This document shows positions 1 through 49,184 of a stretch of DNA of 64,000 nt, piece after piece (within the stretch, counting starts at the first letter, position 1; every line of letters starts with the position of its first letter). The DNA lies in assembly GCA_950295325.1 (NCBI GenBank), contig OX485807.1, forward strand, positions 7,901,001-7,965,000, read 5' to 3'. The position numbers were made by a program, and so were the translations under genes. The DNA is from Polytrichum commune. Its lineage: Eukaryota; Streptophyta; Polytrichopsida; Polytrichales; Polytrichaceae. The notes below the pieces were generated by a model. It had not been told where the DNA came from and did no database searches. It saw only the letters and a list, made by a program, of their open reading frames with translations.

Positions 1-299
1 TGAAATTTTTTGTCATCTTCATTTTTCATAGTAATTGTTTTAGTTGAATTCTGTGTCATTCTTGGTAGAAATGGTATGTTTTCTAGAAAAATATGATCAT
101 CAAATTTGGTCATGATATTTTACCCCGTAATAGATATCATGTATATCTACCTTCCAAAAAAATTTGAGAAAATTTTGACCCATTTGGTGGATGCAACTTG
201 GCAATGGAGTGACCTCCCCTGGAACATCATCAAATGTGAACCTCACGGGTGAACACCCGTGAGCCATATAACAAGTAAATTGGTTAGGTTTTAAAATCA
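1..299. other. AT-rich upstream segment with a hairpin
   Basis: No gene is visible. The one notable structure is a perfect inverted repeat at 242-263 (CTCACGGGTG, a 2-base AA loop, then CACCCGTGAG). It lies just upstream of the palindrome array and could be part of the same mobile or regulatory unit, whose left end would lie outside the window. Confidence 0.5.
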
Positions 300-1000
300 T
301 CAAGGAGGGGCATTTGGAAGAGGCCTCGGATCCGAGGCCTCATTTTTGAGTCAGGTTGTGTGCTTGAAAAATGAAAATGTTAGGTTCATTTTTGAATTCT
401 CTCGGCCATTTTCTGTAGTATGTATTTCATAAGGAGGGACATTCGGAAGAGGCCTCGGATCCGAGGCCTCATTTTTGTGTCAAGGTATGTGCATGAAAAT
501 TTAAAATATTATGCTCATTTTTAAATGCGCTTGGCCCTATTGTTTTGGGTAGTGCATAAGTAGGTATTTTGTAAAGAGGCCTCGGATCCGAGGCCTCATT
601 TTTGTGTCAAGGTATGTGCTTGAAAAATGAAAATCTTATGTTCATTTTCGAATGCTCTCGGCCTTTTTATTTTGGGTAGTGAATAAGTATGTGTTTTGGG
701 AAGAGGCCTCGGATCCGAGGCCTCATGTTTGTGTGAATTTTATGCTAGAAAAATCAAAATGTTATGTTCGTGTAAGATTGCTCTCGGCCTTCTTGTTTTG
801 GGTACTACATGAATAAGAGGTTTGTGAAGAGGCCTCGGATCCGAGGCCTCATTTTGGAGACAATGTATGGGCTTTAAAAGTCAAACTGCTATGTTCACAT
901 AACATTTCTCTCGGCCTTTTTCTTTTGGGTAGTGCATGAGGAGGAGGTAGGAAAAGAGGCCTCGGATCCGGGGCCTCTCATTCGTAGGTAGGTTAGTGCT
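300..1000. repeat. six-copy 127-bp tandem array, each unit with a 22-bp palindrome
   Basis: Six head-to-tail units each contain a 22-bp perfect self-complementary palindrome. Its 20-base core is AGGCCTCGGATCCGAGGCCT, with one extra G at the left and C at the right. Copies start at 320, 449, 576, 703, 829 and 956, giving spacings of 129, 127, 127, 126 and 127. The last copy has one mismatch. Between the palindromes the units share an AT-rich body ending near CTCTCGGCC and TTTTGGGTAG. The array ends about 150 bp before the predicted start codon of the next gene, so it sits in its promoter or 5' leader. The same palindrome recurs in the downstream array. Confidence 0.95.
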
Positions 1001-1149
1001 AGAGTTTACCACTTGACTTAGCATTCGGCCATTACCATTTGTAGTTTGCTCTCGGCCTTGTATTGTTTTTGTGAGGATTTGTTTCTTTATAGTTACGAAG
1101 TTATTGACTTTTCTTTGTGAAATTCTCATTGTCTCCATGTTCTTAGGAT

Positions 1150-4100
1150 ATGGACTCTTCACAGGTTGCGCAATCGCAACCCCAATCTGGAGAGGATGTT
1201 GTTCTTGCGGCCCCTGCGGTTGAAGTTGAAGCTGTGCAGGTTGAGAGTCTAAATTCGCAGGGCCCATTACAAGTAGAGGTGAGTTGGATAGTTGTTGAGT
1301 AATTTGTTGAGCAAGTTTTTTGAGTTCTAGCTTTCTAACATGGTTTTACTATTTGTGTTTTTGTTAGGCTCTCGCAATGAGCGAAGATGCCGTTCAAGCA
1401 GTTGCCGACACGGATCCCGTGGTGTGTGAGCTTGAGCTTCGGAAATCACAAAAGGAGGACTCCATTGGTGTTATCCAACGCCTCCGGATTAAGCCAACAT
1501 GTAAATCCCGCTTATCCATTCCTTTGTGCCGCTTGAGAGCCCTCCCTCTCGTCTGTCCTATAAGTGAGGTTGAGGTGCAGCGCTTGGAATGTGAATTTGT
1601 AATGGGATACCGAGAGGGTGATCGGGTTCTTTACGTGTCTGCTTTCAACGACGTTCTCGTGGACCTCCTCATTCCCCTTGGCATTATGGCCTCTTGGAGC
1701 CCTCTCTGGCAAGAGGCCTCCGCAAAATTTGACGCCAAACTCAAGGAGGATCCGGATCTTGCACATTTCGCCGGGAAGATGTTATTCGTCTGGGAAGGCA
1801 ATCATCGTCTCACCGCTTGGTGGAGACACATCAATAACCACCACGCCGATGACAAGAGTTGGCATATCTCGGTGGATTGCATTGTTGTTGACCCTAGAGG
1901 ATACACCGGTGTATTTCTCAATGCCATGAGCGACATTAATTGGTAAGCTCACTCATTTTTTTCATTCATTTTTCATTTTTGTTTCAATTTTTTTCCATTC
2001 TTTTCACCTCACGTTCCTCACATATTTTCTCTCAGGTCAACCGAGCATGATTATGTCAAGGCAAACATTCCGGCCAAGCTCCTTCGAATCCGCACTTTTG
2101 GAAGGTTAGAGTTGTCCACCTTCAAGGATCTCATATCGCCATCTGACTACAAAGCATGCGAGAAGATAAAGGAGAGTCGTCCAACTTGGTACACCTTGAC
2201 CGCGGATGTGTTCGTTAAGTTTCTTTACAAGGTATGGTTTGTGCATTCAATCATTTAGAACTTCCAACATAGACAATTTCTATGCCGATTATATGAACTC
2301 ACAAGATCATTTCTTGCAGACAGACATTTCGGCTCAAGCAGACCTTGCAGTGAGGCATTACCGTGAGACCACACCTGTTGCAGAGAGGTCGGCCACTGAG
2401 ATTTGGAATGTTATGACCAAAGCCCAGGAGAGGACAATCAAAAGTATTCGGGCCCGTTCTTTTGAGAAGTACATATCCGTTGCACACCCTGACAATGGAG
2501 AGGATTTCTTTCATGAGGTACTCTTTTGAACTCAAATCACTCTTGAACGCAATTCATCCAAATCACTCTTCAACTCTATTACTCTTTTGAACTCAAATCA
2601 TTTTTATTTTGTGCACAGATTGACCGCCATTTTAATGAGTTCTCTTCGACGGACATGACAATTGAAAAATTGCAAAAAATTGTCACATGCCCGGTCGAAC
2701 CTTCGTTCAAAGCTAAGTGGCTTTACTGGTGGAACGCCCCCCTTCGTGAAAGATTAGATAACAAGTTCCCCGTCGACAAGCCTATAAGGGAGAGGGCTTT
2801 GGACGACTGGCTACACAAGGCGTCCTTCTGGGCTCAGGTAAATCCATTCCTCGGCCTTCTTCATTTTTATTTTCCTCTATTCCATTTATCTCATATCTAA
2901 TCATCTCCCTCTCTGCAGTTGGAGAAGGAAGTCGCGGTTGAAATTGAGACCTTAGAGGAAAGCCTCTCCGTTGACATTGATTGGGACGCATCAGAAACTA
3001 TCTTGCGCCCTCGTGAGTACGTTGATCATTGGCGGATTGTCCTTTGGGACAAGGCCTTCAAACCTTACCTCAGCGATAAGCCTGACATCGCCTTTGCCAA
3101 AGGTGATAATCTCTTGGAGTTCGAGGAGGGGGCTCTCGCTATCAAGCGTGTGGCCTATCGGTAATACATCTATCCTCCACTTTGCACCTCTCCTTAATTT
3201 CATTTCTTGCTCGTTTTCTTGGTTTTCTTACATTCTTGTTTTGTCATGTAGGTATATCATGAGAGAATTGGTTGTGAAGAATGCATTGGCCTCATCTTCC
3301 TTGCCGGACTACCTCTCGGACTGGGTGAATATTTTTTCTAGCCTCTGCGTGTATACGACCGCGCAAACAAACAAGTTTTCCGAATTGCACTTGCAAGGTG
3401 GTGGATGGTACTTGGATTGTGCTGCAGGATTTGTCCCCGGGGAAGAGAAGGCTTTGTTTGCTAGCCTTGTGGGTAGTGCTCCGGATGATAACATTGTTAC
3501 CTTGGAGGAGCCTGACATCGTTGAGCTTCCCCCTCCTCCTTCTAAGGCACCAAGGAGAAAGAGCAGAGCAAAGAAGACCGCCACTCAAGCATCTTCCCAA
3601 GTTCTCATTCGGTCTGCTTCTAAGACCCCAGTTGAGCCACCCACCCTCCCGCACAGTCCATCTATCGTTCCCTCCGTTGCTCCCTCTCTTGCCCCCTCTG
3701 TTACTCCATCTGCATTTCATCCACAATTTCTTGCCACTCCATCTCATAGTGGCACTTCTCTCCTCTCTTTGCCTCGCAAGAGGAAGGCCGCTCTCTTGGA
3801 TACCAGTGCCACCTCTTCGGATGCCCCTAACACGCTTTCCCTCATCGAAAATGTGGACATGGTTCAATTAATGCTGGATTCCGAGGTTGCCGGAGGTCCC
3901 CTCCCCGCATATACCCGCATCCAAGAGTTCATTGCCAAGGTTTGTATACTTGCCTTTGTCAATTCTCAATTTTTTTTCCTTTGCTTTGCTTATTTCTTTC
4001 CTTCTTATTTTCTCATGAAGTTTCAATTGCAGGTTGGGGCAGGTCGTTCCCGTGTGAACACCTCGACTACAACTCACAAGGGCCTCGATTTGCTCTTCGC

Positions 4101-5348
4101 CGACATTCCCGAGAATTTGCCGGTGCCGAACATCTCCACCGATGTTCCTGCTTGGAACAAGCTCCATGAATCATACTATGAGTGTATTTTTGCATTTGCG
4201 AAATCTAACCTCTATGATCATGGTGTCCTTGTTCTTGCCCATTGTGCGAGTGCCAGTGTTTCTAGGAGTATTTTCGATTGGGCACACACTTATGACTTCT
4301 ACGTCGCGGAAGATTGGTTTGGAATGAATGATTTGGACCTCCAATCTCCCGTTGTTCCCTCTGGAGTGGTAAGCAAGTCTCCCTCTCTTCCCCTTCCGTA
4401 TTGCTTATCATTTCAATTTCAATTCAATTTCAATTCCATTTCATTTCAATTCAATTTCATTTTCATTGTTGCAGACTCGGAAGTTCAGCATCAAAGTTCT
4501 TGTTCGTGTTAACTCCGTTCTTAGAGTGCGGGAGGAGGCCATACAAGAGTATGGTTACAACCTCCAACGAGATGGATGGTTGAATACCTTCACCGATGAG
4601 AAGAGCCAGGCGATGCGCAGTGATGGGGTACCTTGGCGAGGTGCCCATGAGAAGCATCCTATTTTTTTTTCCATCCTTCTCGCTACTCTCACCGACAAGA
4701 ATGATGTTATTATGGATTGGCAGTGTGGTGTAGGTACGCCTTGTTTTTCAACTTCATCCTTACTTTGAATTTTCTATTATTTTTCCTTGACTAGTTTCCA
4801 TACTAACATTTTACCTCTCGTTGCTTTAGGTGGTTCGATTACAGCATGTCGCTCCCTTGAGCGGCATATTGTGGCCCTTGAGAGTGACCCCGTCATTTTC
4901 AATTCACTCCTACTCCCCATGCGTGATCCCCAGCCTGCGCGTATATCTCGCTCAGTTACCGCACCGTCTACATCTATCTTTGATCCTCCTCAAAAGATGA
5001 CCAAGAGGGCATTCGGATTCCTTTGTGCGTAAGTTTGCTTTTTATATTTTGCCATGTTTGCCTTGATTTCAAATTCTCATTTTCTAGTGTCATCATGTTT
5101 CTAATCATTTTGCTTGGGTGTTTAGAGAGCCAGCGGAGGTCGCAGTCATTCGTCGAGACATGTTTTCAAGTCCTCCGAAGCCGTTTGAGCTTCCCCCGTA
5201 TGCTAGTGCAATGGCGGATTGTTTTGCGAAGGCGGAGTCCCCATCTCCTCCTCGCGTTCGTCATTTCTCACGTGGGACACGAAATCTTTTCTTGTTAGAA
5301 GCAAATGAGGGTGAGGAGAGTGATAGGGAATGTTCTCCAAGCCCTTAG
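1150..5348 (+). CDS. ParB/Srx-like domain fused to a beta-class DNA amino-methyltransferase-like domain (11 exons)
   Basis: The exons I infer are 1150-1278, 1368-1942, 2036-2231, 2320-2517, 2619-2837, 2919-3160, 3252-3939, 4033-4368, 4475-4733, 4830-5028 and 5126-5348. They total 3264 nt in one continuous frame (1087 aa), and every intron is GT-AG and 75-106 nt long. Residues about 105-245 look like the ParB/sulfiredoxin fold, with the signature WEGNHRLTAWW (GNHR at 187-190). A Pro/Ser/Thr-rich basic linker covers about 580-700. The C-terminal part follows beta-class N6-adenine/N4-cytosine methyltransferase order. It has a motif-IV-like segment DLLFADIPEN (ADIP at 772-775, where active enzymes have DPPY or a relative), then HEKHP (919-923), then a motif I-like MDWQCGVGGS starting at Asp 942, followed by an acidic strand end (LESDP). 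Known ParB-methylase pairings are bacterial and phage. The altered motif IV suggests lost or changed catalysis. The ATG was chosen because it gives an in-frame 43-aa exon ending in a good donor. Function is unknown: it could be an accessory gene of a mobile element or a host chromatin factor. Confidence 0.75.
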
Positions 5349-5403
5349 TTTATCATTTTGGTTTTGGAGATTATAACTCCGTTTGTTGTTGTTATCCGGC
5401 TTT

Positions 5404-5409
5404 AATAAA
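5404..5409 (+). terminator. poly(A) signal AATAAA
   Basis: A canonical AATAAA lies 55 bp past the stop codon of the ParB/methyltransferase-like gene, followed by GT-rich sequence. It is a likely 3' end signal for that transcript. Confidence 0.5.
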
Positions 5410-6330
5410 AGTTGTGTGTTGGTTTTATTTTTGATATCCGGCGCAAGTTTCATTCTTTCTCTCCATTATTTCATATTCATAATGTCAATCCGCATTGCAT
5501 TCTTTATTTTTTCTTCATCATTCGGATCTCTTAACTTCTAGTCACAAAACAATCTAGCTCTCGGCTCTTAGTGTGAGATCTTAGTTATAGGGGGACCATA
5601 CTTTCTATTAGTGTGGATGGTTTATTTTATGGTTGTGCACACTAATCACATTGGCCGTCTTCCAATCCCAATTGCTATATAGCAATTGGAAGTTTTGTTT
5701 GGCACGCGAACATAACCTCGTCAAACTTTTTAAATTGAACTTCATGTTGTTCTCAAAGAGTCGGCACGTCACCTCAAAAATTTCCAAGAGGATTCTAAGG
5801 TTGGACTTGGGGGATTTGTCTTTGAGGTCTTTGGCTAAGCTAAGGACTGAATTGGAAGGCTGTTATGGTGCGACGGAGTTTTATGGCATGTTCTTTGGAT
5901 CATTTTACCCATATTGGACATGCCCGGCAGATAGGGTGTAGATGGCCCTAAACTAGAGTATATAGCTATTTTAACTAACTACCCATTTTTGTAAGTCTTG
6001 AGGTTGGCTACATTTTGTTAACCAATAAAATATTTTGTGTATGGTATTTTGATTTCAATTTGGTGACGTCGGCCTTAATTTAATATGATACATTTGAAAA
6101 CATATACTATAAGATGTTTGATAATAAATGCAATCTTCCACGCCTATAGGATCCGTTGGTTTCTCAAACAATTATGGGTTATTATGTCCACGGGAATGGG
6201 GGTACCTTTCCAAATATAGAATTCAAACTATCTCTAATTCCACGGAAATAGGCACTGCTTCTCCTAAAATTACCCAACAAAATCTAAATTTTCCGCTCTC
6301 CAATCTCCGCTCACATACTTGAGTTTCCCA
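5410..6330. other. intergenic, with a second perfect palindrome
   Basis: No convincing gene. A 102-codon open frame at 5633-5941 has no recognised domain. A 22-bp perfect palindrome at 5668-5689 (CCAATTGCTAT then ATAGCAATTGG) differs in sequence from the palindrome in the arrays. Confidence 0.45.
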
Positions 6331-7524
6331 CCCATTCCCAACCTACAAACCTTATACCCAATCTGAAATGATACCGCAGCCATTAGGCCTCGGATCTGAG
6401 GCGTTCTCCAAGTGGGACTTAGTCCACCTCTGTGAGCCCAAAATGGTGCCCACATGTGGTGATTAATTCTTTGAAACCAATTTTAGTTAGACTTTGAAGT
6501 GTTATGATTGTTCACAAAAATATAAAAAGAGTGAAGTGTGGTGTGGATTGAAGTTTAGACATTAGGGGGTATTGTGTGATTGTTTCAAGGTTTAAGCCAC
6601 GGGTAGATCACTTAGTGCATTTTAAAAACGACGTGCGGCATAATATAGAGAGGATTAAAATCATTTGGAATAAAAATTATAAAGGAATTCCAAATAATGA
6701 AGGGGCCATTAAATGTAGACAATCCCATTAAAAGTAAGTTAGATGGACATAAAATGTGGGCCATTATTTTTTTGTAAAATTAATATAGGGGTTGAAGATA
6801 AGGATCCTAGAAGGTATGTTTAGTATGCTATGTAAATGGGTTTAGGACTCACGGGGATGGATGATAATTGGGATTTCCGTCTATCCAAAATTACTTAAAA
6901 GGAATATAGAGTACAAAAAATTGCAGTGACCTGGACAATATAAGTAATGGAAGGGTGCAAACAAATGGACCATTTTTGAAATTTAAGTAATTATAGGGAG
7001 GCTTTAATTCAACCCTTGAAGGTAAATAGCCCCAAAACCAAAAACCCCCAGCCGCACGTGGTGCACAAAAATGCCTTAGAGTGACCTACCCGTGGTTTAA
7101 GCTCAATTAGAGAATGCCTTGATTATGTGAGTAGGGGGCAAGGTGAGGTCCGCGGGTTAAATGCCCACATTAGGATCCACCTTGTTAGTTTAGGAAGGGA
7201 AAGGCCTTGTGGATGGGATGAGTCCCTACTTAGGAGGAAGGGATTAAGGGGTTGTGATTGGAGGTGCTAATCCTCTCACCCTATCCTTACCTCATGATCT
7301 CTCTCTCTCTTTGCTACTTAAGGCTTCCCTCTCTCATTTTTGCTCTCTCTCTCAATCTCTCTCATGTGGAGGGAGCCCTTAGAATGATTAGAAAAACACG
7401 TGTGATTAGTTGTTAACTTGATAAAATTAGTAGGAGGATAGGTTAATTATGAGTTGATAGATTAGAGGAATGTTAAGTTAATTACTAGGAGTGAGAATGG
7501 TTTGTAGAACTCATTAGACTTCTG

Positions 7525-8110
7525 TCCAAGCACTGCTGGAACTGGGTTAGTTGCTGGAGCAGCCGAAGGGCGTGAACTGGGCTAGTTGCTAGAGCAGCCG
7601 AGGGCCTGAACTGAGCTAGTTGCTGGAGCAGCTGAGGGCCTGAACCGAGCTAGTTGCTGGAGCAGCCGAGGGCCTAAACTGGGCTAGTTGCTGGAGCAGC
7701 CGAAGGGCGTGAACTGGGCTAGTTGCTGGAGCAGCCGAGGGCCTGAACTGAGCTAGTTGCTAGAGCAGCCGAAGGGCCTGAACTGGGCTAGTTGTTGGAG
7801 CAACCGAGGGCCTGAACTGGGCTAGTTGTTGGAGCAACCGAGGGCCTGAACTGGGCTAGTTGTTGGAGCAGCCGAAGGGCGTGAACTGGGCTAGTTGCTG
7901 GAGCAACCAAGGGCCTGAACTGAGCTAGTTGTTGGAGCAGCCAAAGGGCCTGAACTGGGCTAGTTGCTGGAGCAGCCGAAGGGCGTGAACTGGGCTAGTT
8001 GCTAGAGCAGCCGAGGGCCTGAACTGAGCTAGTTGCTAGAGTAGCGGAGGGCCTGAACCGAGCTAGTTGCTGGAGCACCCGAGGGCCTAAACTGGGCTAG
8101 TTGTTGGAGT
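7525..8110. repeat. 34-bp minisatellite inside the LTR
   Basis: About 17 contiguous copies of a roughly 34-bp unit read like GCTAGTTGCTGGAGCAGCC plus GAGGGCCTGAACTGG, with small variations such as GAAGGGCGTG. Units abut directly with no unique spacers. The equivalent position of the second LTR (about 14510-14680) has a different, shorter repeat built on GGAGGC and GGCTTAGCGGCTGG, so this part of the LTR seems prone to repeat expansion. Confidence 0.9.
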
Positions 8111-8381
8111 AGCCGTGGATGGTTGGGTCTCAAGAAGTAGTGGGTAGTAGGGAGCATGCTTGGGTGACCAAAGCTTAGCTCAAATTGAGTACTATCACTC
8201 AAACTAAGCATAGGTCAAGTTAGGCATTTTAGATTATTCTAGCACATATGTAAGTGTTAGATTTATTAGGCTAATTAGTGTGAGGCGTGGCTTGCTAGTA
8301 AATGTAATTGGGGTGGATCATCAAGAACAGTGTTTTTAAACACTTGCATCTTCTTGGTCAAAATAAGTTACTTGTTCAAGA

Positions 8382-8546
8382 ATGGAGAATGTGGTTGATC
8401 CTAGCAATGGCAAGGCAAAGGAAGTAAAGATTAAGGGTGCTAGGGGAATGTCTTTACGGGGATGCGTGGCCAAAGCCGCGGGATGGACCTTTGAGAAGGC
8501 TAATGCCTCATTTGTTCAAGAAACAAGTATTAATAAAACATCATGA
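8382..8546 (+). CDS. 54-aa small open frame in the LTR, conserved in the sister LTR
   Basis: The frame starts ATGGAGAATGTGG and ends TCATGA. Its C-terminal half contains ARGMSLRGCVAKAAGWTFEKA. The diverged LTR at 13630-15248 has an alignable frame, ARGKSLKACVAKAVGWTLEKA, ending in almost the same place (NKTS-stop versus NKMS-stop). Similarity is clearer at the amino-acid level than in flanking DNA, which suggests a translated peptide or a coding exon reaching into the element. I know of no family for it. It could also be conserved for RNA or packaging reasons. Confidence 0.4.
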   Translation: MENVVDPSNGKAKEVKIKGARGMSLRGCVAKAAGWTFEKANASFVQETSINKTS

Positions 8547-8860
8547 ACTTTAGAACTAGAAAGTTCACTGAGATGAAGGATATTTCTTATATCATTGAGA
8601 TTTGATACTACACATGTGATTCACAAACCCATCATCCGGACTAGGACGCTTAAGGGTGGTGGGTTTGGCCTCACAACCTCAAATGACAACCTGTAACCAT
8701 CCGAGACCCATTCCCAATCTACAAACCTTATACCCAATCTGAAATGATACCGCATCCATGAGGCCTCGGATCCGAGGCCTTCTCCAAGTGGGACTTAGTT
8801 CACCTCAAATGACAACCTGTAACCATCCGAGACCCATTCCCAACCTACAAACCTTATAAG

Positions 8861-9018
8861 AGAACGTGCAAGCAAATACAGTATAGGTTCCTCAACCACG
8901 GTTATAGGTTATTTTTGTCAATAAATTTGTCAATAAATATTTCAAAAGTTAGCTCTACACCGCGGTCATAGGGCATGTTTCACCACACAAAATTTCAATA
9001 TTCTAGAAAACTTACCGC
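8861..9018. other. short spacer after the array
   Basis: No feature recognised beyond a small AT-rich direct repeat (TTTGTCAATAAA twice near 8915-8940). Confidence 0.4.
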
Positions 9019-10511
9019 TCACCGCTCGCAAAATAGCTTTTCCCAGGCTACTCCGGTGTTCCCATGCTCTTCCTCAAATGTTGGCGGCCTACGTACTACT
9101 CCCTTATTGGTTTGTTGCTTGGTGAGCTCAGCAATTGTGGCCTTCAATTTGGCCACCTCATCATCCTTGGACACTTCAACCTTCAGGTTGTCCTCTGTAC
9201 ATTCAATTGTTGGATCCTTCCCTAAATCCCTGTCATTGACCTCGTCTTGCGTGGGCTCATCGTGAGCACTTGAATCCTGAGAACCATGTTCTTGGTTTAG
9301 GGCCGGGGTGCTCACAATTTTGTCCTGAACAACCTACACATACATAAACCCGGGAGTGAGTACATTGTGTCGTGAACAACCTACACATACATAAACCCCT
9401 GTTGGTAATTGTAAGTACTTTAAAGGTTGGAGTTAAATCACCTCTGTAGGGATCGCTTCAGATGGCACTCCCGGAGCATCTGCAGAATTTGCAATCCCTA
9501 GAACTAATGTCGTGAACCAAGACTTCGTGGGCGACTTCAACGGCGACTTCGGCGGCGTAGTTACTCCAAGTGCAACACTTCGAGAGGGTGGCGTTTCCAA
9601 ACCCTTTGTTCTAATGGGTGGAACCTGTGCTTGACTAGTCTCTCCCAAACTGTATGTCCCTGTGGACTCCTTTATTCTATTTGGTGGAACCTGTGCTTGA
9701 CTAGTCTCTCCCAAGCTGTATGTCCTTGTGCACACCGAAGCTTGACCAAGGGGTGGCTGTTGAGAGGACCCTGCAATTCATAAAACAAAATATAAGAAAC
9801 AATTCACCAACAAAACACCACTTGAGTAGAATCAGGAAAGTACCATATCTATGTACTTCCAAGTATGTAAGTACACTTGTAACTACAGAGATGGGTGGAT
9901 GTACCTCTCATTAGGGACTAACTGTATGCTTATATATCCCATAAAGTGTATATAAGACTACAAGATGGCAGTGAATGGTATAATAACATAGTCTAACATT
10001 GTTTTCGGAGTATATACACATATACATAATATGTGTATGTACTTCTGAGTACCCAAAGCATACTGGCAAACTACTCTTGCATTGTATGTTAATATACACA
10101 GTAGTACATTGAAATGTACTAAGTGTACTATATCCGAGTATAACTAGTGTAGTATGTTGAAGCTCTATAAACACTTCAATATACCACAAGTCCCATATCC
10201 TGTGTACTACAAGTATATTGTCATACAATATAGATCAACAAGTGAACCCTTAAACCCTTGACCCTTGGTACACCAAATGACAACACAAACAACATGCTCA
10301 GGTGGAGGGAGGGGGGCATACCAATGTCCGCACCAGTACGTTTGGCAGCAGCTGTTCTTTCGGATAGAGCCAGATTCCTTTGCTCCTCGCAATCCAGTGC
10401 ATCGGCCTTCTCCTCAAGACTAGTTGGATGTTCCCCGAAGCTGAAACTTTTGTACTAGTCTGGGTGAAATACTGAACAATTTTTTTCTACACATTTTACT
10501 GATGTACTCAA

Positions 10512-11312: not shown

Positions 11313-11716
11313 GATGTACTAAACCAAGACACAGCACACCATGGGTGGTAGACATGCCTGCAGCTACACACTATAATGTCATTGTAAGAAAATGCGGAAC
11401 CACACAAAACGCAGTTTGTTACTTTTAGGAAATCACTATCAAGTTGCTCAATCCCCTGTGAGTTGCACATGGGGTGGGGGTGCAATGCCAATCCAGGCCG
11501 TCCACTTCGCAAATTTGACAATTGCTTCGCCAGTAAGGATTGTTGACTCACGAGGAATGCCTCCCTCCGCACCAACTTGTCATGAAGAGTAGCTTGAAGG
11601 CCCTGGTCTGCAACAATGGCGTTGTACTCACCCTCTGTCCTCTTGAAAGTAGCCTCGTAGAAGTGGAAGGTCATCTGCATCTTCGACAACTCTTGCAACA
11701 GGGAACAACTCTCGAC

Positions 11717-12740
11717 CTTTCCCCGTGAGAACGGTGAGAGGTTTGGCAATCAAACTAAAGTTTTTGACAAACCTTCTATAATAATTTGCCAATCCTAGAA
11801 ATGCCCGAAGTCGTGGTACATCATTAGGTGCGGGAATTTTCTGCAAAGCATCCACCTTCGCCTGTTGCACACCAAGACCGCCAGAAACAATTATATGGCT
11901 TAAATATTGCAATTGATCATGGAAAAACTTACATTTGCCATGATGTAAACAGAGTCCCCACCGTTGTAGTCGTTCAAATACCGCTTGCAAATGTCTCACA
12001 GGATCATGTGGACTATTACTAAAGATGATAACATCATCAATATAACATCTAGCAAAGGCTAAACCAACCAATAATTGGTCCATCACCCGCTGAAATTCAG
12101 CTGGTGCATTCTTGAGACAAAATGACAAAAATTTCCAATGATAAAATTGATCCTTGTCATCTTTATCAATTCCCCAAAATACGATCTTCACCCGATCACC
12201 CAACAACAAAGGTAATTGATGATAACCAGACCTCAAATCCAGAATGCTAAAGATTCTAGCAAATCCCAGTGCATCAAACAACTCTTCTGGCATCAGCATT
12301 GGATATCGATCCGACTTGGTCTTGTGGTTGACTGGACCATAATCACCACACATCCATTTTTCCGTCCAGTTGCCAAAGATATCTTTCTTTGAAGGCATAA
12401 CCGTGGCACAAGCATACTCTCCATTGGAGAGTTCAATCAATTCTACTGCCAATAATTTTTGTCATCGAATTTGAACACCCAACCTTTCAGATGTATTAAG
12501 TCTGTACGGCCGTCTGAAAATAGGATGGTCGTCCTCGAGTTGAATACGAACAGGTTTACCTTTATATCCTTCAAGATCATGAAGACTAAAGGCAAAACAA
12601 TTACAGTAAGAGCGAATAAATGCTTGTAATTTTCGTGCTTCGGCACCAGTAAGTTTTGGTCCCACTTCAATTGGCCAATCGTCAAACTCCATGGTTTCTT
12701 TCTTCATAGAAGGATTGCCACTTGGTGCCAGCACAGCCTG
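11717..12740 (-). pseudogene. Ty3/gypsy reverse transcriptase, truncated
   Basis: The frame runs 12734-12465 (PIFRRPYRLNTSERLGVQIR), meets a single in-frame TGA at 12462-12464 and continues in the same frame to about 11717. Palm motifs are clear: FSILDLRSGYHQLPL, the catalytic YIDD at 12033-12044 with CYIDDVIIFS, and the thumb-like LRAFLGLANYYRRFVKNFS. Conservation is good apart from the stop. The RNase H and integrase that should follow are missing. Between this and the methyltransferase end (12740-13116) is a poorly conserved linker with one 79-codon open piece and no recognised domain. Confidence 0.9.
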
Positions 12741-13629
12741 TGATTGCTAGTCCGTGGAGAGAGCAACACCTTTGCCCCCATCATCTGCACTTGAATCCAA
12801 ATACGTATCTTCTCCATTATAATTAGTTTGTGTAGCTAAATAACTACCCTATATATGAAGTGTCACCAAGAAATAGAAGTGAAAACATTTTATGTGCCTC
12901 CAACTTCCTAAAATCTTGGGCCAAAACCGCAAAAACACGTTGGGCTCGAAGCTCTTCCGCAACATGTTGTTTCAAAGAAAATAATCCCTCGGTGTCATTG
13001 ACCTTCATGTGATCCTTGGATTGCGGCTCCATTGCCCCCTTACCATTGTTCTCTGCCCTCAAAGGAAGCAATTGGTCATCCATTCGTTATTGAGCAGCAA
13101 GACAAATTCCAATTATTCACACAATGCTATTAAGATCCATAGTTTGTCCCAATACGAAACGTCTCTGACCTTCCTGAAGCCCATGAGCAGCCGTGGTGCC
13201 TGTACGAAAATTTATAGCACGTTCCCGCTCATCTGCCGTAGGCTCATCATGAGTTTGGGATTTTAAATTCCAAACCATGTCTGGTCCACGAGATCGAAAT
13301 GCAAAAAACCGTGGATATGTCACAAAAGTAGGTAGTACACCTCTCAAAATTCCCACCATGTTAATTAATGCAAATGGCAAGGTGTCACCCTTGGTAACTG
13401 CCAAAGAAACACGATGATAATTTAAAATGTCATCCACCTTGCGATTCATAAGGCGGAGAATGCGGGCGATCGCCGCTGAAAGCACCTAAGGTGATACCAA
13501 ATTGGTCTAAAACCAACGAGGCCGATGCGCAAAGGATCCCAAGGATGCAGCATCCAGAAATGTTGAAGTACCCAAAATTTGGTTAATGTAGTTACCATCC
13601 TTCACCACTTTATGTCGTGTATCACCCAG

Positions 13630-15248
13630 TGTGAGCCCAAAATGGTGCCCACATGTGTTCTTAACCCTTTGAAACTATTAGAAGTTATGTTTTGATGTTT
13701 TATAATTATTCACAAAAATATTAAAAAAATGAGGCTTGAGTGAAGTTATGTTTAGACCTTAGGTTGATTAGAAGTTTAGCAGTATGAAGAAAATTCCTTA
13801 GTTAGGTGAGCATAGTGTGTGGTGAACCAAGGGTGGCTACTTGAGTTAAATGTTTGAATTATGATCTATGTTGTTGTTTTAAGAGTTGAAGGCTTAAATG
13901 ATAGGATGAGAGCCTACAAAATAGGAAATGATCAAAAGGTTTATCTTCAGCCTTGGGAATGCTCACCTACTCCCTTAAAGGCTTAAATGATAGGATGAGA
14001 GCCTACAAAGTAGGAAATGATCAAAAGGTTTATCTTGAGCCTTGGGGTGCTCACCTACTCCCTTGAAGGCTTAAAGGATAGGATGAAAGCCTACAAAGTA
14101 GAAAAAAGATCAAAAAGTTTCTCTTGAGCTTTGAGGGTGCTCATCTACTCCCTTTCACCTCACTATATAATCCTCACTCTCCTCTCTCTGTCTCTCTCTT
14201 TCCTTTGTACTCTTTGGCACCTCCACATGTTATGAGTGTGGGTGTGTGGGAAGCAAGAAAGGAGCACGTGTGTGTGCAAGGTCTCAAGGTGAAGAACCAA
14301 GATTAATTAGCCTTGAAGTTAGTTGACACTTGTTAGGAGTAGTCTTTGGTTTGAGGCATTTAGAGCTTAGCTCATTGTGTTCAACTTATAGAATTTAGAC
14401 TTATATCATTTAAATTTATAGTGTTTAGAATTATAACATTTAGAATTGTAGCAACTAGATTTATGTTAGATTTATGTTAGATTTAAAGCATTCAACCTTG
14501 TAGATTTTAAGGCGGAGGCCACTTAGGCTAGCTGTTGGTTTGAAATTGGAGGCAGTCGGCTTAGCTACTGGTTTGAAGTTGGAGGCAGTTAGGCTTAGCG
14601 GCTGGGTTGAAGAGGGAGGCTAGTTAGGCCTAGCGGCTGGGTTAAGTAGAGCCAGTTAGATTTAGCGAATGGGTTAAGGAGGAATCTAGTTCCAACTAGT
14701 TGTGCACTTCCGAGTCTAAGCTAGATCGACAAGCTAAGTTACTACTAGTTAGTGAGGATGGTTAATTAGACTAATTAGTTAGGCTAGAGGGTTAAGCTAG
14801 TTGGGTTAGGCTAGTTGGTTTAGTGGTTGCATTATGAGATGAAGTTGGGAAATATTTGTGAAGAACTTGTGGAAGAGGAGGTAATGTTTAGTTATATAAG
14901 TGTTTTCCAACACTTGTATTAAAACTTATATGCCTCATAGAATGAACACATCATAGCCTTAGCGAGGTGTCATGCACCAGTGAAAAATCGACAGCCATAA
15001 CCAAAGTTGCAAGGGGAAAATCATTGAAGGCATGCGTGGCAAAGGCAGTGGGGTGGACTCTGGAAAAAGCCAAGGATGTGTCTATGCACGAGGTTCACAC
15101 TAATAAAATGTCATGATTTGAATTAAGTTAGAAACTCATCAAGATATAACGTACATCCCATGTTACCACAAGTTGTTATGTTACACATGTGATCTCCAAA
15201 CCTATTACCCGGACTAGGACGCTTAAGGGTGGTAAGTTTGGCCTCACA
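13630..15248. mobile_element. second solo LTR (1619 bp) inserted in the methyltransferase
   Basis: It starts TGTGAGCCCAAAATGGTGCC and ends GGTAAGTTTGGCCTCACA, the same ends as the LTR at 6431-8675. It also shares the internal 3' block ACCCGGACTAGGACGC, but it is clearly diverged elsewhere. It breaks the methyltransferase frame between PLL and LGDTR. The flanking bases CCAG (13626-13629) and CCAA (15249-15252) fit a 4-5 bp target duplication with one change. Three imperfect repeats of about 90 bp lie at 13910-14140 (GGCTTAAATGATAGGATGAGAG), followed by CTATATAATCC, a good TATA-like candidate at about 14163. Confidence 0.85.
14942..15116 (+). pseudogene. remnant of the LTR small open frame
   Basis: The open frame ends VHTNKMS-stop and contains ARGKSLKACVAKAVGWTLEKA. 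It aligns with the 54-aa frame at 8382-8546. An in-frame TGA lies upstream and no ATG starts it here, so the copy looks 5'-broken. Confidence 0.4.
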
Positions 15249-15869
15249 CCAATAATGGCACATTTTCAAAAATGTACCCTGGCGGAGTTGATTGGTGGGT
15301 AAACCACCATTGTGTCAATCGCATCAAATCCGCAAACAAACTAGACCTAGGATCATCCAAACTCTGGCCAGTTCCTGCCCGTGAATAGCCTTGACAAGGC
15401 CATCCTGCAATAATTAAATCCACGTGGCCCAATCTTCTCAAATTCTCATCACTAATTACAGTGACATCGTGAGGAGTTGACAACAACATCCAAAAATGGC
15501 AGAGGCTGACAATTGTACGGGGTACCTCAACAACAATTATTGGATGTGGTGTCAGACGGCTCTGTTGGCTGCATATCCATTATCCACATGAATATATCGC
15601 CTAACTATAATCCCAGCCTCCAACACTGCCGCCAAACTTATGTCAATGCCCCCAAAGATTTCCACAAGGACAATACCTTCAGGTGGTGGTTGCCAACGAA
15701 TGGGTTGAGCAAAAGAAAATGACGATGACGTTGGAGGTGTCTCTCCAAGCCCCAAATCCGCTACAATGTGTCGACAATGGTCGGATAATTCCTTAGGAGT
15801 ACGCCATGGTGGAGGTGGATCCTTGAAATGTCGAGCAGAAATTTGTAAAGATGGCAAAATTTGTTGTTA

Positions 15870-17252
15870 TGTTGCATTACAAGAGTAGTCCAATGTTTCC
15901 TCCAACAAAACTGGAACACAAGGCAAATCCACAACTGAACCGCTACAACCAAATATTGCCTCCGCAACCGTAGTCATAGAAGTAGTTGCAAATGCTACAG
16001 GTATAAATACCTTCTTGCCATCACCAGAAGGCCATCCCGGTCTAATCCATGCCTCTTCAGTCCAATTATCCAAACCAAAGCCAAGTGGATAAAGAGCTTG
16101 CTGACCAACAAGTATATCATAGTTGGTAGCATTAGTAACAACACACTTCATTGACAAATGAATATAGGTAGGTCATGCCCCCACATTAAAAATCAAACGT
16201 AGAGGTGCCTTGGTGTAACTTGTTGCACGTTCAGTGCCCCCTACTGAAGTCACAATTGTGAATGGACAAGGATCTAAGTTTGCTAGCGTCAATCCAAGAC
16301 TGTCAGCAAATCCTTTGCCAATCATAACCGGTTGAACACCAGAATCCATCATAACTCTCAGTGGTCTAGCACGAATAGCAGGAATATCCGCGCGTGAAAC
16401 GACAAACAAATATTTATCGTTCATCAGCCATACAACTCCAAGTTGCAAATTATGCCGCTCGCAAGCAGGCCTTGCAGAAATATCTGCAAGATATGCCGCT
16501 CCCGCTGCATAATTCGAAAATGACGTGTCCACTGCTGAAATTGTTGATGGCGGAATATCAGTGTGCTTACCAAAAACAATGATTGCTGCATCCGCAAGGC
16601 TCGCTCGCAAATTGGCTAAGTCCTCCACCTCCTCAGCTACAGGTACGTCAACAATAGCTTGGGATACTTGAAGGCATGACAAATCCGCCTTACCTTCTAA
16701 CATTCTCCCAGCAAAATGGAAAACTCCAGCAAGCTTGAAATCCGGAGCCATCAACTCCGAACCCGAGAAAATTGGCATATGGAGAATTTTATATGCCAAT
16801 GTCTGCGTAACATCCTTCGAGATGGAATCCCCATCTCTCAAAGGTACAGGGTTTTTAACCCCAACAACAGTGGTGCCTCCCAATCCAAATGAGAGAGATA
16901 AACGTGCTTGACCAACTTGATCCGCTGGTCCGGCATGGCGAGGATGTGACACCTCGTTGCTACCACCACTTGTAGAAGCCACCGCATCTGCCAATGTTTG
17001 TGATCGAGTAGAAGCCGCAGCCACCACCTCTCCAGACGCCCCAAACATATACATGTCCGAACCCGAGGTGCCACGACCTGCATGCGGCTCAGAAATTTGA
17101 GCAAAAGATACAGAAGATTTGAGTTTTTGCTCAAGCTCTGCCACCTTAGCCTCAAGACTCTGCTCCCTTGGAGATTTGCCAGTGACATTAACTGGCAGGC
17201 CGCATCTCATGATGAAGTTGGAAACAACGATCCACGTCGTGATTAGTGCCAC
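15870..17252 (-). pseudogene. retrotransposon aspartic protease region
   Basis: A 359-codon frame (17252-16173) ends with the retropepsin-like segment RVMMDSGVQPVMIG (catalytic Asp at about 16346; DSG is the usual retroviral triad form). A second frame (16157-15867) continues with NYDILVGQQALYPLGF, which matches the C-terminal part of gypsy proteases (ILG/LLG-type flap and helix). A stop and frameshift at about 16170 separate them. The N-terminal 250 residues are a linker between gag and protease without a recognised domain. Confidence 0.7.
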
Positions 17253-18420
17253 TACAATGGTTACATTTCAATTGTCTCTTCTTAGAATTGTCCCCTGTCT
17301 TTACTAGTTCTATCTTTTGTTTTAATTTTCCCAAAGGCTGGGTTTTCTTCTTCTTAGGACAATTGGGATCATTCTTCGAATGACCAGCTTCTCCACAACC
17401 CCAACAATGCAAAATATTTTGTTCCTTAACGGGTTGAGTCTCAGCTAAACTACTAATAGCTGTGACAATTCTTTTTGATTTCGTACTCTCTGTCATTCAG
17501 GATACCATGTCTGTGGCATCGTGTTGACAGAGAACCCGATCACATCTCTCAACCACGGCAAACGCTTGTGCAAGCGTAGCTCTGCCTTCGTAGTCGAGGA
17601 TAATCCGAGGTGATGCCAAATCAAATAACCGCTTGTCAATCTTAGACAAAAAGATTTTGACAAGCTGACTCTCAACAAAAACACCTCCCGACTCAACAGC
17701 AAATCGTGCGAGTCGCGTATACATGGTCCGTGGAGTGTCATCCTTCTCTCGGCAGAAATCCTGAATGCGCTGCATCTGGTCTCGCCGAATTCCACCATAC
17801 TCCACCTCCAAATGTGCGACAAATTCAGCAAGGGGATTAAATGGAGGTGGTGGACCAACAGCCGTCAATATTGCCTATGTAGCACATGCCATCCGTGAAA
17901 GGGTAGCCGTGCTACTGCCAGCCACTATTGGCCCAAGTGGCAGTTCTTTGTCTTTTGACTCCTCCAATGGTTCCTCCTCCTTTAAGGTGGGTGGAGCTAA
18001 GGTGGCAACCGCCCCATCTTTAAGGGCTGAAATAAGCTCAACCCGGGCCTCCCAATACTGCTCTACCTCTCGAAGTTGTCGCTGATGACCCTCTGTCCAG
18101 CGTTCATAAGTTTGGAGTGCCTCATACTCCAAATGCTGAGGCAGGAGTTCAAAGGCATACCAATCATTGAAATTGGAAGACCTTTGACATTTCTCTTTAA
18201 TCCAGGTACGAAACCGGAGTTTCCAATCGGGCAAGGAAATGCCCCCAGCTCGACCTGAAAACCGATCATGCACTAAACCGTGGTGATCGTCCTCCATTTC
18301 GTCGAACGTGCCGACACTCCAAATCCGAAGCCTACTAGTAGTGTCCAACGCCGAAATAGGCTCAAAAGCCTCGTTGGTATCTACCTCTGGCTCAAGATTT
18401 GTGGTATGCACGTCCTCCAA
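17188..18420 (-). pseudogene. retrotransposon gag with two zinc knuckles
   Basis: Three open pieces (18420-17875, 17868-17497, 17496-17188) make up gag, interrupted by stops and a frame change. The middle piece resembles a gypsy capsid region (PFNPLAEF, then RIQDFCREKDDTPRTMYTRL). The last piece has two CCHC zinc knuckles, CWGCGEAGHSKNDPNC at about 17406 and CNHCSGTNHDVDRC at about 17265, separated by a Lys-rich stretch. Gag would package element RNA in the cytoplasm. No ATG fits the first piece, which opens at a TTG codon. Confidence 0.75.
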
Positions 18421-18470
18421 GTAATTTGGTGATGGAGATCGATCATATCAGCTCCTAGTTTGCACCATAA

Positions 18471-31345: not shown

Positions 31346-34300
31346 TTAATGCTCTCCTTTTGGCTTCTTGTTTGGTGGGGGACCCATGCTTCCAGCATCA
31401 GATTTGCGCTTGATGCCCAAAAAGTGAGCAACCTGAAAACAACAAAGCAGCAAAAAAGATTAACCACATATAAGGGCCAGGTCACAATGTTTCAAGCATG
31501 CCTTACTTTACTTCACATGTAGCTTCTCCAGCTCGTCAAATTTCCCACAATTTGGACTGCAAGAGCAACCACCTCCTAAACTAAGTTACAGTTAGTAGTA
31601 TGGTTGACAGTTCATAGCTAGAGTAAAGACATCAAGCACTTGCCTCAATGGAACTGTCTCACTGCCTTAATGGAACACTCACTAGCTCATTGAGGCAAGT
31701 GCACTCCATTAACATCTCTCACTTGCCTCAATGGAACATGTGAGGAGATTCAATATACAATACTCCGAGAAATATAAAGTCAGTATTCTGAAGCATGACC
31801 ATAATGTATTTCCAGCTATCAGCTCAGATATATACTCACCTTCTTATCACCTAACATCGGTGTCAAGCTGCCAATGTTTTTATTGTCCCCTAGCATGGGA
31901 GTGAGACTGCCCACAGGCTCCTTCTCCACAGTAGCAAAACCATTTCTTGGATCACTTGTTTGCCTGAACCAACAAAACAAACCATTATTTACTAAAGTGA
32001 GGTTGCAATCCCCAAGTCAATCTTATAGTATCTCATATTATCTGCAAGCTTCATGTAAGAATTTAAATTTTGTAAGATGAGGTGACAGATGGAAGTGTTG
32101 TTGATTCAGAAGTCAAGGTCTGAAATTATGCTACCTAATTTCATAGGTCTACTTTCAGTATCATGTCCTCTCTAGTAACACCCATTGTATGATGCTACGT
32201 TTGCAAATGTCAGTTAAGTACCGGTACAAAGAGACCAGTAACAATTGGATCAAATAGGTGGTTTACCCATACTTGGCACAGTGCAAACAAGAGAAATGAA
32301 GAGGTCGTCTAACCCTCAGAATCTTGTTTTGTTACTTTATGGGAAGTTCAATTGTTGGATTCTGCAACATTAATTTTTCAAGCAACCGTCGTATCTTAAA
32401 GCTCACCTACAAGTCAAACAATCATGAGCAATAGCACATTTGAGAGAGAGAATATACCCGGGTTTTATGTGGCCACTGATGACAATATAGGGTGCATGAC
32501 TCCTGGCATGGGCTTCACGAATTCGTTCCATTGACTTGAGAGGAGTATCTCCTGCATTCATCTGCTTGAGTTTCAACTCCTCCTGAAATTGCTTTTGCTT
32601 CTTTTCTTGCTTCATTTTTCCAGGTCCTTTCCCATGGAACTTGTGAGAGAGCTTTCGGAATGCCTCCTTTGGTGTCATCTGTGGAAGAGCACCATACAAG
32701 ATCTCAATAATAATCCACAACTGCCTGACATAGTCAAACACTTCCAAAGCCAAGATATTATAGATATGCCCAAATAGGAACTAAAAAGGAGTCAACAACG
32801 CAAATGATGATAAGTAAAGAAGATTTCTAGATTGTAAATGAATATAGAGCAATCAGAAGAACCTCACAGGACAGAGCAGATATACACCATGAGAGGCAAG
32901 CCTGGTAACAAGTCCTTGGCACCATAGCATCATAGAAGTATATCAATGAGGGAAATTCAGCAGAAAATAATATTGAATGAGCATATTCAAGAAGCATACC
33001 ATTCGACCAAATTCGTCAACACGATCCAGCAGGATATCCCTTTGCCCGACAACATTGTTTGATTCGTCCACAATTCCAACCAGCTTGCTCTTTTTCTTGT
33101 CCATGTTCCGGCCACCCCAATCGACTGTTTCCTTCAACGTTCCTCTTTCTTTCAGTAAGCTCAATGCTCCTGCCAAACCCCTCCCCACTGACACTTCCTT
33201 AGCATCTTCTAGGGTCTCCTCTTCCTCCTCTGCTACATTAGGGGTTTCTTCCATTTCTACATCCTTGACCTCTGTCCATCCACCTTCATCTGCTGTGGCT
33301 TCAGGCTCCTCTTCATCCTTATTATAGTCTTCTAGTTCTCCATCCTCCTTATCCTCCTCATGGAAGACGTCTTTGGGCCCAGACCTCCTAGTGAGAGCTG
33401 CATCAGGATAGAGCAGTAAACCAAATCAGTCATCTCATTGAACCTATCTATCAATAGCCCAGATCTCTTTTAGATCACATCTTACAGAAATAATGTTGTG
33501 TCTATTGGAGCCAAAAATAACTATAACCATTTGTATAGAAAGAAGTTAATATGTTTGCTGTTGCCACTGAAAACTTCAGGTTTTTCTCTAGAATTATTGA
33601 ACACATTCGGGATTGAGTTTCTTGTGCCACTTTAGATATATTTCTAATAAAACAGCACAGGTTCAGCAAGTTCATTAGTTAAGACAGGCAAACAAACTCA
33701 CCTTCATCTAGTTGTAGACTTCGGCAAAACTCGCCAGTATCACTAAAAACGAGCTTTCCATCTTCACCATCCCCACCTGCTTTGGGTCTTTCCTGCCTTG
33801 ATGCTGCCAAAACATGATCTAAAGTCAAACTTTGATATACCTTAAGGGGCATCTATGACATTCCATAACAGTGACTTTTGTACACCGGTACAACAAGAGG
33901 AGTCTACAAACAAGATGAAGCTTGATTGCAAAGTTGAATCAGCAAGGAATAAACCTGTAAACCTAACTACAAGGATCTGGCTTGAATGCCAAAAGCAATT
34001 TCCTACTTTCTGCAGAGTACTCTAGCTGCACATTTTTCTCATAGTTCCCTACATCAGTGAGTGTACCTCTCAAAGAAATTTTGGTAAACTAAGCATCAGA
34101 TTTGTACCTGCTAGACGAGCCACAACTGCTTGTGGGCCAATTGCATTTTCTGCCTGTTTCTTCAGTGCTGCTTGTCTCGCCCTTTCCAATGACTTTGCTA
34201 GAATGTCATCTTCTTCGGTATCTAAAGTAGGAACATCTTCAGTATCATCTACATCCATGGTCTTTGACTCACTTTCTTCCCTGAGTATTCTAGAAGCATC

Positions 34301-49168: not shown

Positions 49169-49184
49169 TGGAGTAGCTAGCTAA

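Follow-up and report, generated by a model that had tools for sequence, protein, structure and literature searches.

The stretch of DNA analysed here, referred to as the window, comprises 64,000 nucleotides of the Polytrichum commune genome (C5:7901001-7965000, forward strand; contig OX485807.1, assembly GCA_950295325.1), and the genome-wide searches covered the assembly of 407.8 Mb in 64 contigs. The window begins inside a DNA transposon of 17,278 bp (C5:7890052-7907329), which carries an accessory gene for a methyltransferase-like protein and, upstream of this gene, a long array of the 20-bp palindrome AGGCCTCGGATCCGAGGCCT. The following features of the transposon lie in the window:

321-976, plus strand: the six final units, of 126-129 bp, of a 38-unit palindrome array that starts at C5:7896366, about 4.6 kb before window position 1
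1150-5348, plus strand: accessory gene, 11 GT-AG exons, 1087 amino acids (aa), open; from the reading frame, copies and selection
1150-1278, 1368-1942, 2036-2231, 2320-2517, 2619-2837, 2919-3160, 3252-3939, 4033-4368, 4475-4733, 4830-5028 and 5126-5348, plus strand: exons of the accessory gene
1368-1942, plus strand: exon 2 with the ParB-like motif EGNHR, a likeness at the level of the motif (DGNHR in a 39 %-identical relative)
4033-5028, plus strand: exons 8-10, beta-class N6/N4 methyltransferase-like region with DIPE in motif IV for D-x-P-Y and motif I DWQCGVGGS
6284-6329, minus strand: 3' terminal inverted repeat, reading GGGAAACTCAAGTATGTGAGCG... on the minus strand, the end of the transposon; from copy comparison and DNA searches
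6330-6339, no strand: right-hand copy of the 10-bp target duplication ACCCATTCCC, the left copy standing directly before C5:7890052

The 3' end of the element was established by comparison with two other copies. The similarity broke off at window position 6329, after CTCACATACTTGAGTTTCCC, and the sequence beyond differed in each copy. The 5' end at C5:7890052 starts with GGACGACACTTGTATGTGAGCG, an imperfect reverse complement of the 3' end, and the terminal inverted repeats GGACGACACTTGTATGTGAGCG and GGGAAACTCAAGTATGTGAGCG are alike at 16 of 22 bases. DNA searches provided the 40 best 3' ends (94-100 % identity) and the 40 main 5' ends (90-100 %). All 12 of the 3' ends fetched from the 40 listed stopped at the same base, one of them with a substitution in the terminal sequence, and no more than 7 of the 15 positions past the end were common to any two of 11 insertions. 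Pairing of 3' ends with a listed 5' end was achieved in 11 cases, and an exact duplication (10/10 bases) was present in 10 of these; the insertion defined by C4:4753081 and C4:4776452 had no duplication and was counted as a miss. The copy at C1:2246924-2261912 has TCCTTATATA on either side. When this copy and the window copy were added to the paired ends, exact 10-bp target duplications were found in 12 of the 13 insertions checked. The defined ends with target duplications thus delimit the window element to 17,278 bp, and together with the dispersed copies they identify it as a DNA transposon of the cut-and-paste type. The idea that the whole locus is a host gene was rejected on the basis of the dispersed copies with their duplications. 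An earlier sequence-only reading had proposed arrayed palindromes and an accessory gene of methyltransferase type on a mobile element, and in substance this was right.

Copies of the accessory gene were found on C1-C7. At 25 loci, the window's included, exon 7 was 87-99 % identical, and more copies were present at lower identity. The accessory protein gave at least 210 exon matches in the genome, a lower bound as 42 of 3706 candidates were scored. For 15 of the 40 best 3' ends no gene copy lay within 6 kb among the gene copies listed. No loci related to the element were found in viral contigs.

From 5' to 3' the window copy consists of a 155-aa open reading frame (ORF; plus strand), a two-exon transposase-like gene (minus strand; stretch L012:3554-1356, then to 308), a basic ORF (plus strand; first piece 133 aa), the array, the accessory gene and the 3' end. 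The transposase-like and accessory genes are therefore on opposite strands with the array between them, and the gene order was alike in the three family-1 elements covered, i.e. the window copy and those at C1:2.25 Mb and C1:12.94 Mb. A search of the protein collection (E ≤ 0.1) returned 138 relatives of the transposase-like protein, and the 120 listed were 41-92 % identical to it; they perhaps form a widespread, undescribed group. None of the 120 carries a precomputed Pfam domain, and some are on long contigs. A Pfam scan of the transposase-like protein gave no transposase or Mutator-like element (MULE) match, nor did a PDB sequence search with it return any match. The AlphaFold model of its relative P0002, built with 69 sequences, had a predicted local distance difference test score (pLDDT) of 79 and a predicted template modelling score (pTM) of 0.46. 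The three best PDB matches of this model were all to the ISCth4 transposase with probability 0.98-1.00, at weak scores (E 1.7e-3 to 1.3e-2, none at E ≤ 1e-3; template modelling (TM) score 0.24-0.34, root-mean-square deviation 6.5-16.9). ISCth4 is an IS256-type enzyme related to Mutator. Candidate residues of a catalytic triad were assigned by motif, two aspartates in exon 1 (YD(G/S)T and MADSAQANW) and a glutamate in exon 2 (NLAESVH). Target duplications of MULEs are 8-11 bp long according to the published account (PMC6446971), and here a 10-bp duplication is combined with terminal inverted repeats; with reserve, the element may be called Mutator-like.

A pattern search of the window revealed eight palindrome sites within 3 mismatches, and shuffled sequences gave none. 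The six upstream sites described in the sequence-only reading were confirmed: five are exact (positions 321, 450, 577, 704 and 830), the sixth, at 957, has one mismatch, and the spacing is a regular 126-129 bp. They are the end of an array of 5.6 kb, from C5:7896366 to window position 976, which in the window copy contains 38 units within 3 mismatches, 29 of them exact, at spacings of 95-129, 179, 246, 274 and about 550 bp. The fetched part of the array comprised 35 units in copy A (32 exact) and likewise 35 in copy B (28 exact, some inverted). Some of the array in copy B (C1:13967001-13987000) stands in inverted orientation with respect to the gene, which would reflect either a nested second copy or a rearrangement. 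With the units aligned, the palindrome core holds about 1.9 bits per position (mean of columns over 20 positions); columns near it mostly hold less than 1 bit, several close ones 1.2-1.8.

The exact palindrome occurs 2137 times in the genome, and the reversed control does not occur at all. Within the first 14 Mb of C1 the listed sites group into five clusters, and all five, when opened, contained a member of the gene family. Neither arrays common without a linked gene nor homologues of the gene without arrays, both named beforehand as evidence against a link between the two, were encountered in the clusters opened, which hold a minority of the 2137 palindromes. Six units occupied the same position in each of the five exon-2 loci with sufficient reach, namely the window's own (L044) and L047-L050. 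The palindrome was not found in viral contigs, and its one place in prokaryote genomes, in a Dyadobacter, was taken as unrelated.

Downstream of the transposon the window contains three further features:

6330-8858, no strand: DNA that the transposon inserted into, outside the element; two palindrome units (6385, 8761) that belong to a divergent, older relative and are split by a solo long terminal repeat (LTR)
6431-8675, plus strand: solo LTR of 2245 bp, TG...CA, with the 5-bp duplication ACCTC, within the older relative's array and unrelated to the finding
9023-9044, minus strand: GGGAAAAGCTATTTTGCGAGCG-like sequence in minus-strand reading, probably a terminal repeat of the older relative, found at three other places too

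The two downstream palindromes, at 6385 (2 mismatches) and 8761 (exact), had been taken as a second array with the same period on the other side of the gene. Both palindromes exist, but they are 2376 bp apart, and they come into phase only if the solo LTR, which runs from TGTGAGCCC to GGCCTCACA with ACCTC on either side, is removed together with one copy of its duplication (2376-2245-5 = 126 bp). A downstream 126-bp period as such was therefore rejected. The DNA just before the 5' end of the window element matches window positions 8676-8841 at 95 %, hence the 'downstream array' is the target DNA of the window element. The view that two arrays bracket the gene symmetrically had to be abandoned as well, because the transposon with its gene and upstream array ends at 6329 and what lies beyond belongs to the insertion target, part of another element. 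A 33-nt stretch including the palindrome is common, in inverted orientation, to the first upstream unit and the unit at 8761 (91 %); beyond it the upstream and downstream unit bodies show little likeness. Positions 1-8752 of the stretch L013 and 6330-9044 of the window represent a nest of one extended family, in which at least two divergent relatives, the window element and the solo LTR lie in or beside one another.

The C-terminal part of the accessory protein had PDB sequence matches to DpnA (E 0.0085) and CcrM (E 0.35), and the CcrM alignment pairs both motifs, IV and I. A tblastn search against phages returned 69 records (best E 7e-4), and the 20 listed among them fell on features named DNA methylase or methyltransferase. 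HHalign comparison with seven phage enzymes gave 92-95 %, with 81 % for the N-terminal part by itself, and cross-comparisons with the ParB set gave 0.2-0.3 %. Matches to methyltransferases in PHROGs were weak (E 0.016 and 0.31), and NCBIfam searches with four accessory exons gave nothing relevant. The search of the protein collection returned nothing for the accessory protein at E ≤ 1, a weak search because of the introns and the length limit, from which absence is not implied. The motifs follow the beta-class order, IV and then X-I. Judged by its sequence, the C-terminus is a relative of the beta-class N6/N4 DNA methyltransferases.

The catalytic motif IV of beta-class enzymes is (D/N/S)-x-P-(Y/F/W), and D-x-P-Y was present in all seven phage enzymes (DPPY, DLPY or DIPY). 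The window copy has FADIPENLP at this place, and four divergent relatives have LADLPEGLP, LADIPEGLP or LVDQPEGLP, so that glutamate stands for the catalytic aromatic residue in 5/5 sequences compared (D-I-P-E in the former, D-L/I/Q-P-E in the relatives). Motif I retains GxGG in the window copy and is weaker in the relatives. Replacement of the aromatic residue alone, by glutamate, and retention of the change argue for a changed role and not for decay. Methylation by the accessory protein is doubtful because of this replacement.

In the N-terminal part, the motif EGNHR in exon 2 corresponds to the GxxR pattern given for the ParB P-motif (PMC12704722) and is kept as DGNHR at 39 % identity. It falls in register with DGFHR of YbdM, in an alignment that itself lacks support. 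The AlphaFold model of exon 2 alone reached a pLDDT of 34. The ParB label of this terminus is best treated as a lead taken from a motif and not as a result.

The copy at C1:12.94 Mb has the same gene order and represents a separate subfamily. Between it and the window copy, the numbers of synonymous (dS) and non-synonymous (dN) changes per site, calculated with our own Nei-Gojobori script, were 1.01 and 0.093 in exon 2 (ratio 0.09), 0.39 and 0.064 in exon 8 (0.16) and 0.41 and 0.116 in exon 7 (0.28). These low ratios point to purifying selection on the accessory protein. Among close copies, with few changes, the ratios scattered from 0 to 1.1. Of the 18 palindromes in the C1:12.94 Mb copy, 15 read AGGCCTCGGATCCGAGGGCT, 2 are exact and 1 has two changes, so 17 of the 18 units differ from the window palindrome at 0-1 of 20 bases. 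In distant relatives (L013, L018, and L020 with L051), the proteins are 37-43 % identical in the better-conserved segments, and the same palindrome is kept in unit bodies that are different.

We consider it probable, at roughly 0.6, that a protein of the element, most likely the accessory one, binds the array and thereby marks or protects the element's own copies, by analogy with VANC in VANDAL elements. Binding by some element-encoded protein is likely, and the accessory protein is the favoured candidate for it; an anti-silencing outcome is a tentative proposal. The protein, most likely the accessory one, would bind the palindrome as a dimer, one 10-bp half-site for each subunit, and would accumulate over the 5.6-kb array. 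Its methyltransferase part, with glutamate for the aromatic residue, would more likely read or hold DNA than methylate it. By means of the array the protein would recognise elements of its own family, in the manner of VANC and the VANDAL elements; most likely, copies occupied by it would in consequence escape host silencing or come under control at their own promoters. A more specific version appears doubtful to us: in a plant-lineage transposon family, an ancient phage-type ParB-methyltransferase fusion might have turned into a non-methylating array-loader, and a parS-like array of about 40 palindromes, coated by it, might keep the own copies distinguishable and active, a two-part self-recognition with a palindrome constant down to 40 % protein identity.

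Several observations weigh against the binding of the array by the accessory protein. The ParB identity claimed in the sequence-only reading did not hold beyond the short motif: the Pfam scan of the accessory protein gave no match, HHalign against six YbdM-type proteins gave 0.1 %, whereas the best of 30 column-shuffled controls reached 2.8 %, and the score of the isolated motif box was 0.4-0.5 % against ParB and 1.0 % against methyltransferases, in profile tests of low power because the sequences are few and similar. The conservation of the core is inflated since units were picked by their similarity to the palindrome. The array stands beside a broken accessory gene in copy A (without about aa 569-897), and copy B keeps it despite a stop in exon 2. 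In the distant relatives the palindromes are 3' of the gene, with 2 to 5 seen per element. The array also lies between two genes and could therefore be a promoter device.

The best of the alternatives, still an unlikely one, makes the transposase the protein that binds the palindrome: the array, internal or subterminal, would aid assembly of the ends, and the accessory protein would have another task. The transposase-like gene was present in all three family-1 elements covered, and where the end of a divergent relative could be located, about 260-290 bp separate it from the nearest palindrome, as with subterminal repeats. In family 1, however, the array lies inside the element, with about 6.3 kb on its 5' side and 5.4 kb on its 3' side, and the partial stretches fetched from palindrome-bearing divergent relatives yielded no relative of the transposase. 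Less probable again is a tandemly duplicated promoter or insulator for the neighbouring genes, recognised by a host factor. The array does end about 170 bp before the ATG of the accessory gene, and about 200 bp separate its start from the end of the neighbouring ORF, but this position is not kept in the divergent relatives, and 38 long-spaced copies would seem to be far beyond the usual need of a promoter. A passenger satellite homogenised in the element, with the accessory gene as unlinked captured cargo, is very improbable: the length and arrangement of the array do vary among copies, as in satellites, yet the unit bodies diverge while the core stays, and it is kept between subfamilies with a synonymous divergence of 0.4-1.0.

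The rest of the window contains genes and repeats of other kinds. A xyloglucan-fucosyltransferase-like gene (PF03254) was detected at 43355-49180 on the minus strand as two matching ORFs about 4 kb apart, and a SART-1-like stretch at 32943-33425 scored below the Pfam cut-off. Both, together with the presence of introns, indicate a plant-lineage (streptophyte) genome. Ty3/gypsy-like ORFs span 11628-18447, with reverse transcriptase at 11628-12461 (E 9.9e-22) and a weak protease match in 16173-17267. Among them, at 15244-15579 on the minus strand, lies a fragment of a cytosine-5 DNA methyltransferase (PF00145, E 7e-12), possibly carried by a retroelement; it abuts an LTR-like stretch (13630-15248) that is a relative of the solo LTR at 6431-8675 and has no matching duplication. 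A 34-bp minisatellite is present inside each LTR-like copy, at 7539-8115 and 14514-14675.

Four groups of known systems were used for comparison. ParB systems have a few parS sites, and the array of 38 palindromes sets the present locus apart from ParB-fold proteins, as does the lack of statistical similarity to those of YbdM type. ParB-N6/N4-methyltransferase fusions are reported to occur in phages (PMC12704722), and what the present protein has in common with this group is a GxxR-type motif (EGNHR or DGNHR) N-terminal to a beta-class methyltransferase, together with palindromes near the gene. In Arabidopsis, the anti-silencing VANC proteins are described as binding short motifs that have multiplied into tandem repeats within the VANDAL elements encoding them (PMC5735166). 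They too are accessory proteins of DNA transposons, a likeness drawn from the description; their motifs are 8-9 bp long and non-palindromic, in contrast to the 20-bp palindrome, and VANC6 and VANC21 have different target motifs, whereas here one palindrome persists across divergent relatives. The element resembles MULEs and IS256-type elements in the length of the target duplication, the inverted ends and, at weak scores, the transposase-like model with ISCth4 as the nearest fold, and it differs from MULEs in the missing Pfam MULE match, the very short imperfect ends, the long internal array and the accessory gene.

The closest counterpart is Sola1-1_Ec32 of Ectocarpus, an algal transposon with a ParB-like and DNA methyltransferase accessory protein (PMC12477816). 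According to its published description, it is likewise a large DNA transposon (21.5 kb, here 17.3 kb) with an accessory protein of similar length (1104 aa, here 1087 aa) encoded on the strand opposite to the transposase, with a ParB-like N-terminus and an N4/N6-methyltransferase C-terminus. Bacterial-type ParB-methyltransferase proteins are reported as accessory genes of unexplained role in large algal transposons, and the authors suggest that they serve to bind and modify their own element (PMC12477816). Palindromes are not mentioned in the available text of that paper, and no paper joining such an accessory protein to a palindrome array was found among the papers listed in searches of the open-licence literature. 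For such ParB-methyltransferase accessory genes the present locus offers a candidate cis component, so far missing, with a clear prediction, and the suspected self-targeting mechanism is directly testable in it. If the accessory protein binds the array, this would be a second, independently evolved self-targeting system beside VANC in transposons of the green lineage, one built from a palindrome array and a methyltransferase that is probably inactive. The differences from Sola1-1_Ec32 are the 10-bp duplications and the ISCth4-like, not Sola, transposase model, the streptophyte host, the identified palindrome array, D-x-P-E in motif IV and a ParB part recognised at motif level. For algae, large transposons with a ParB-methyltransferase accessory gene are already published. 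Within the reach of the searches, the novel points are the Mutator-like carrier in a streptophyte genome, the matched palindrome array, which is conserved between subfamilies, and the loss of the catalytic aromatic residue, itself conserved.

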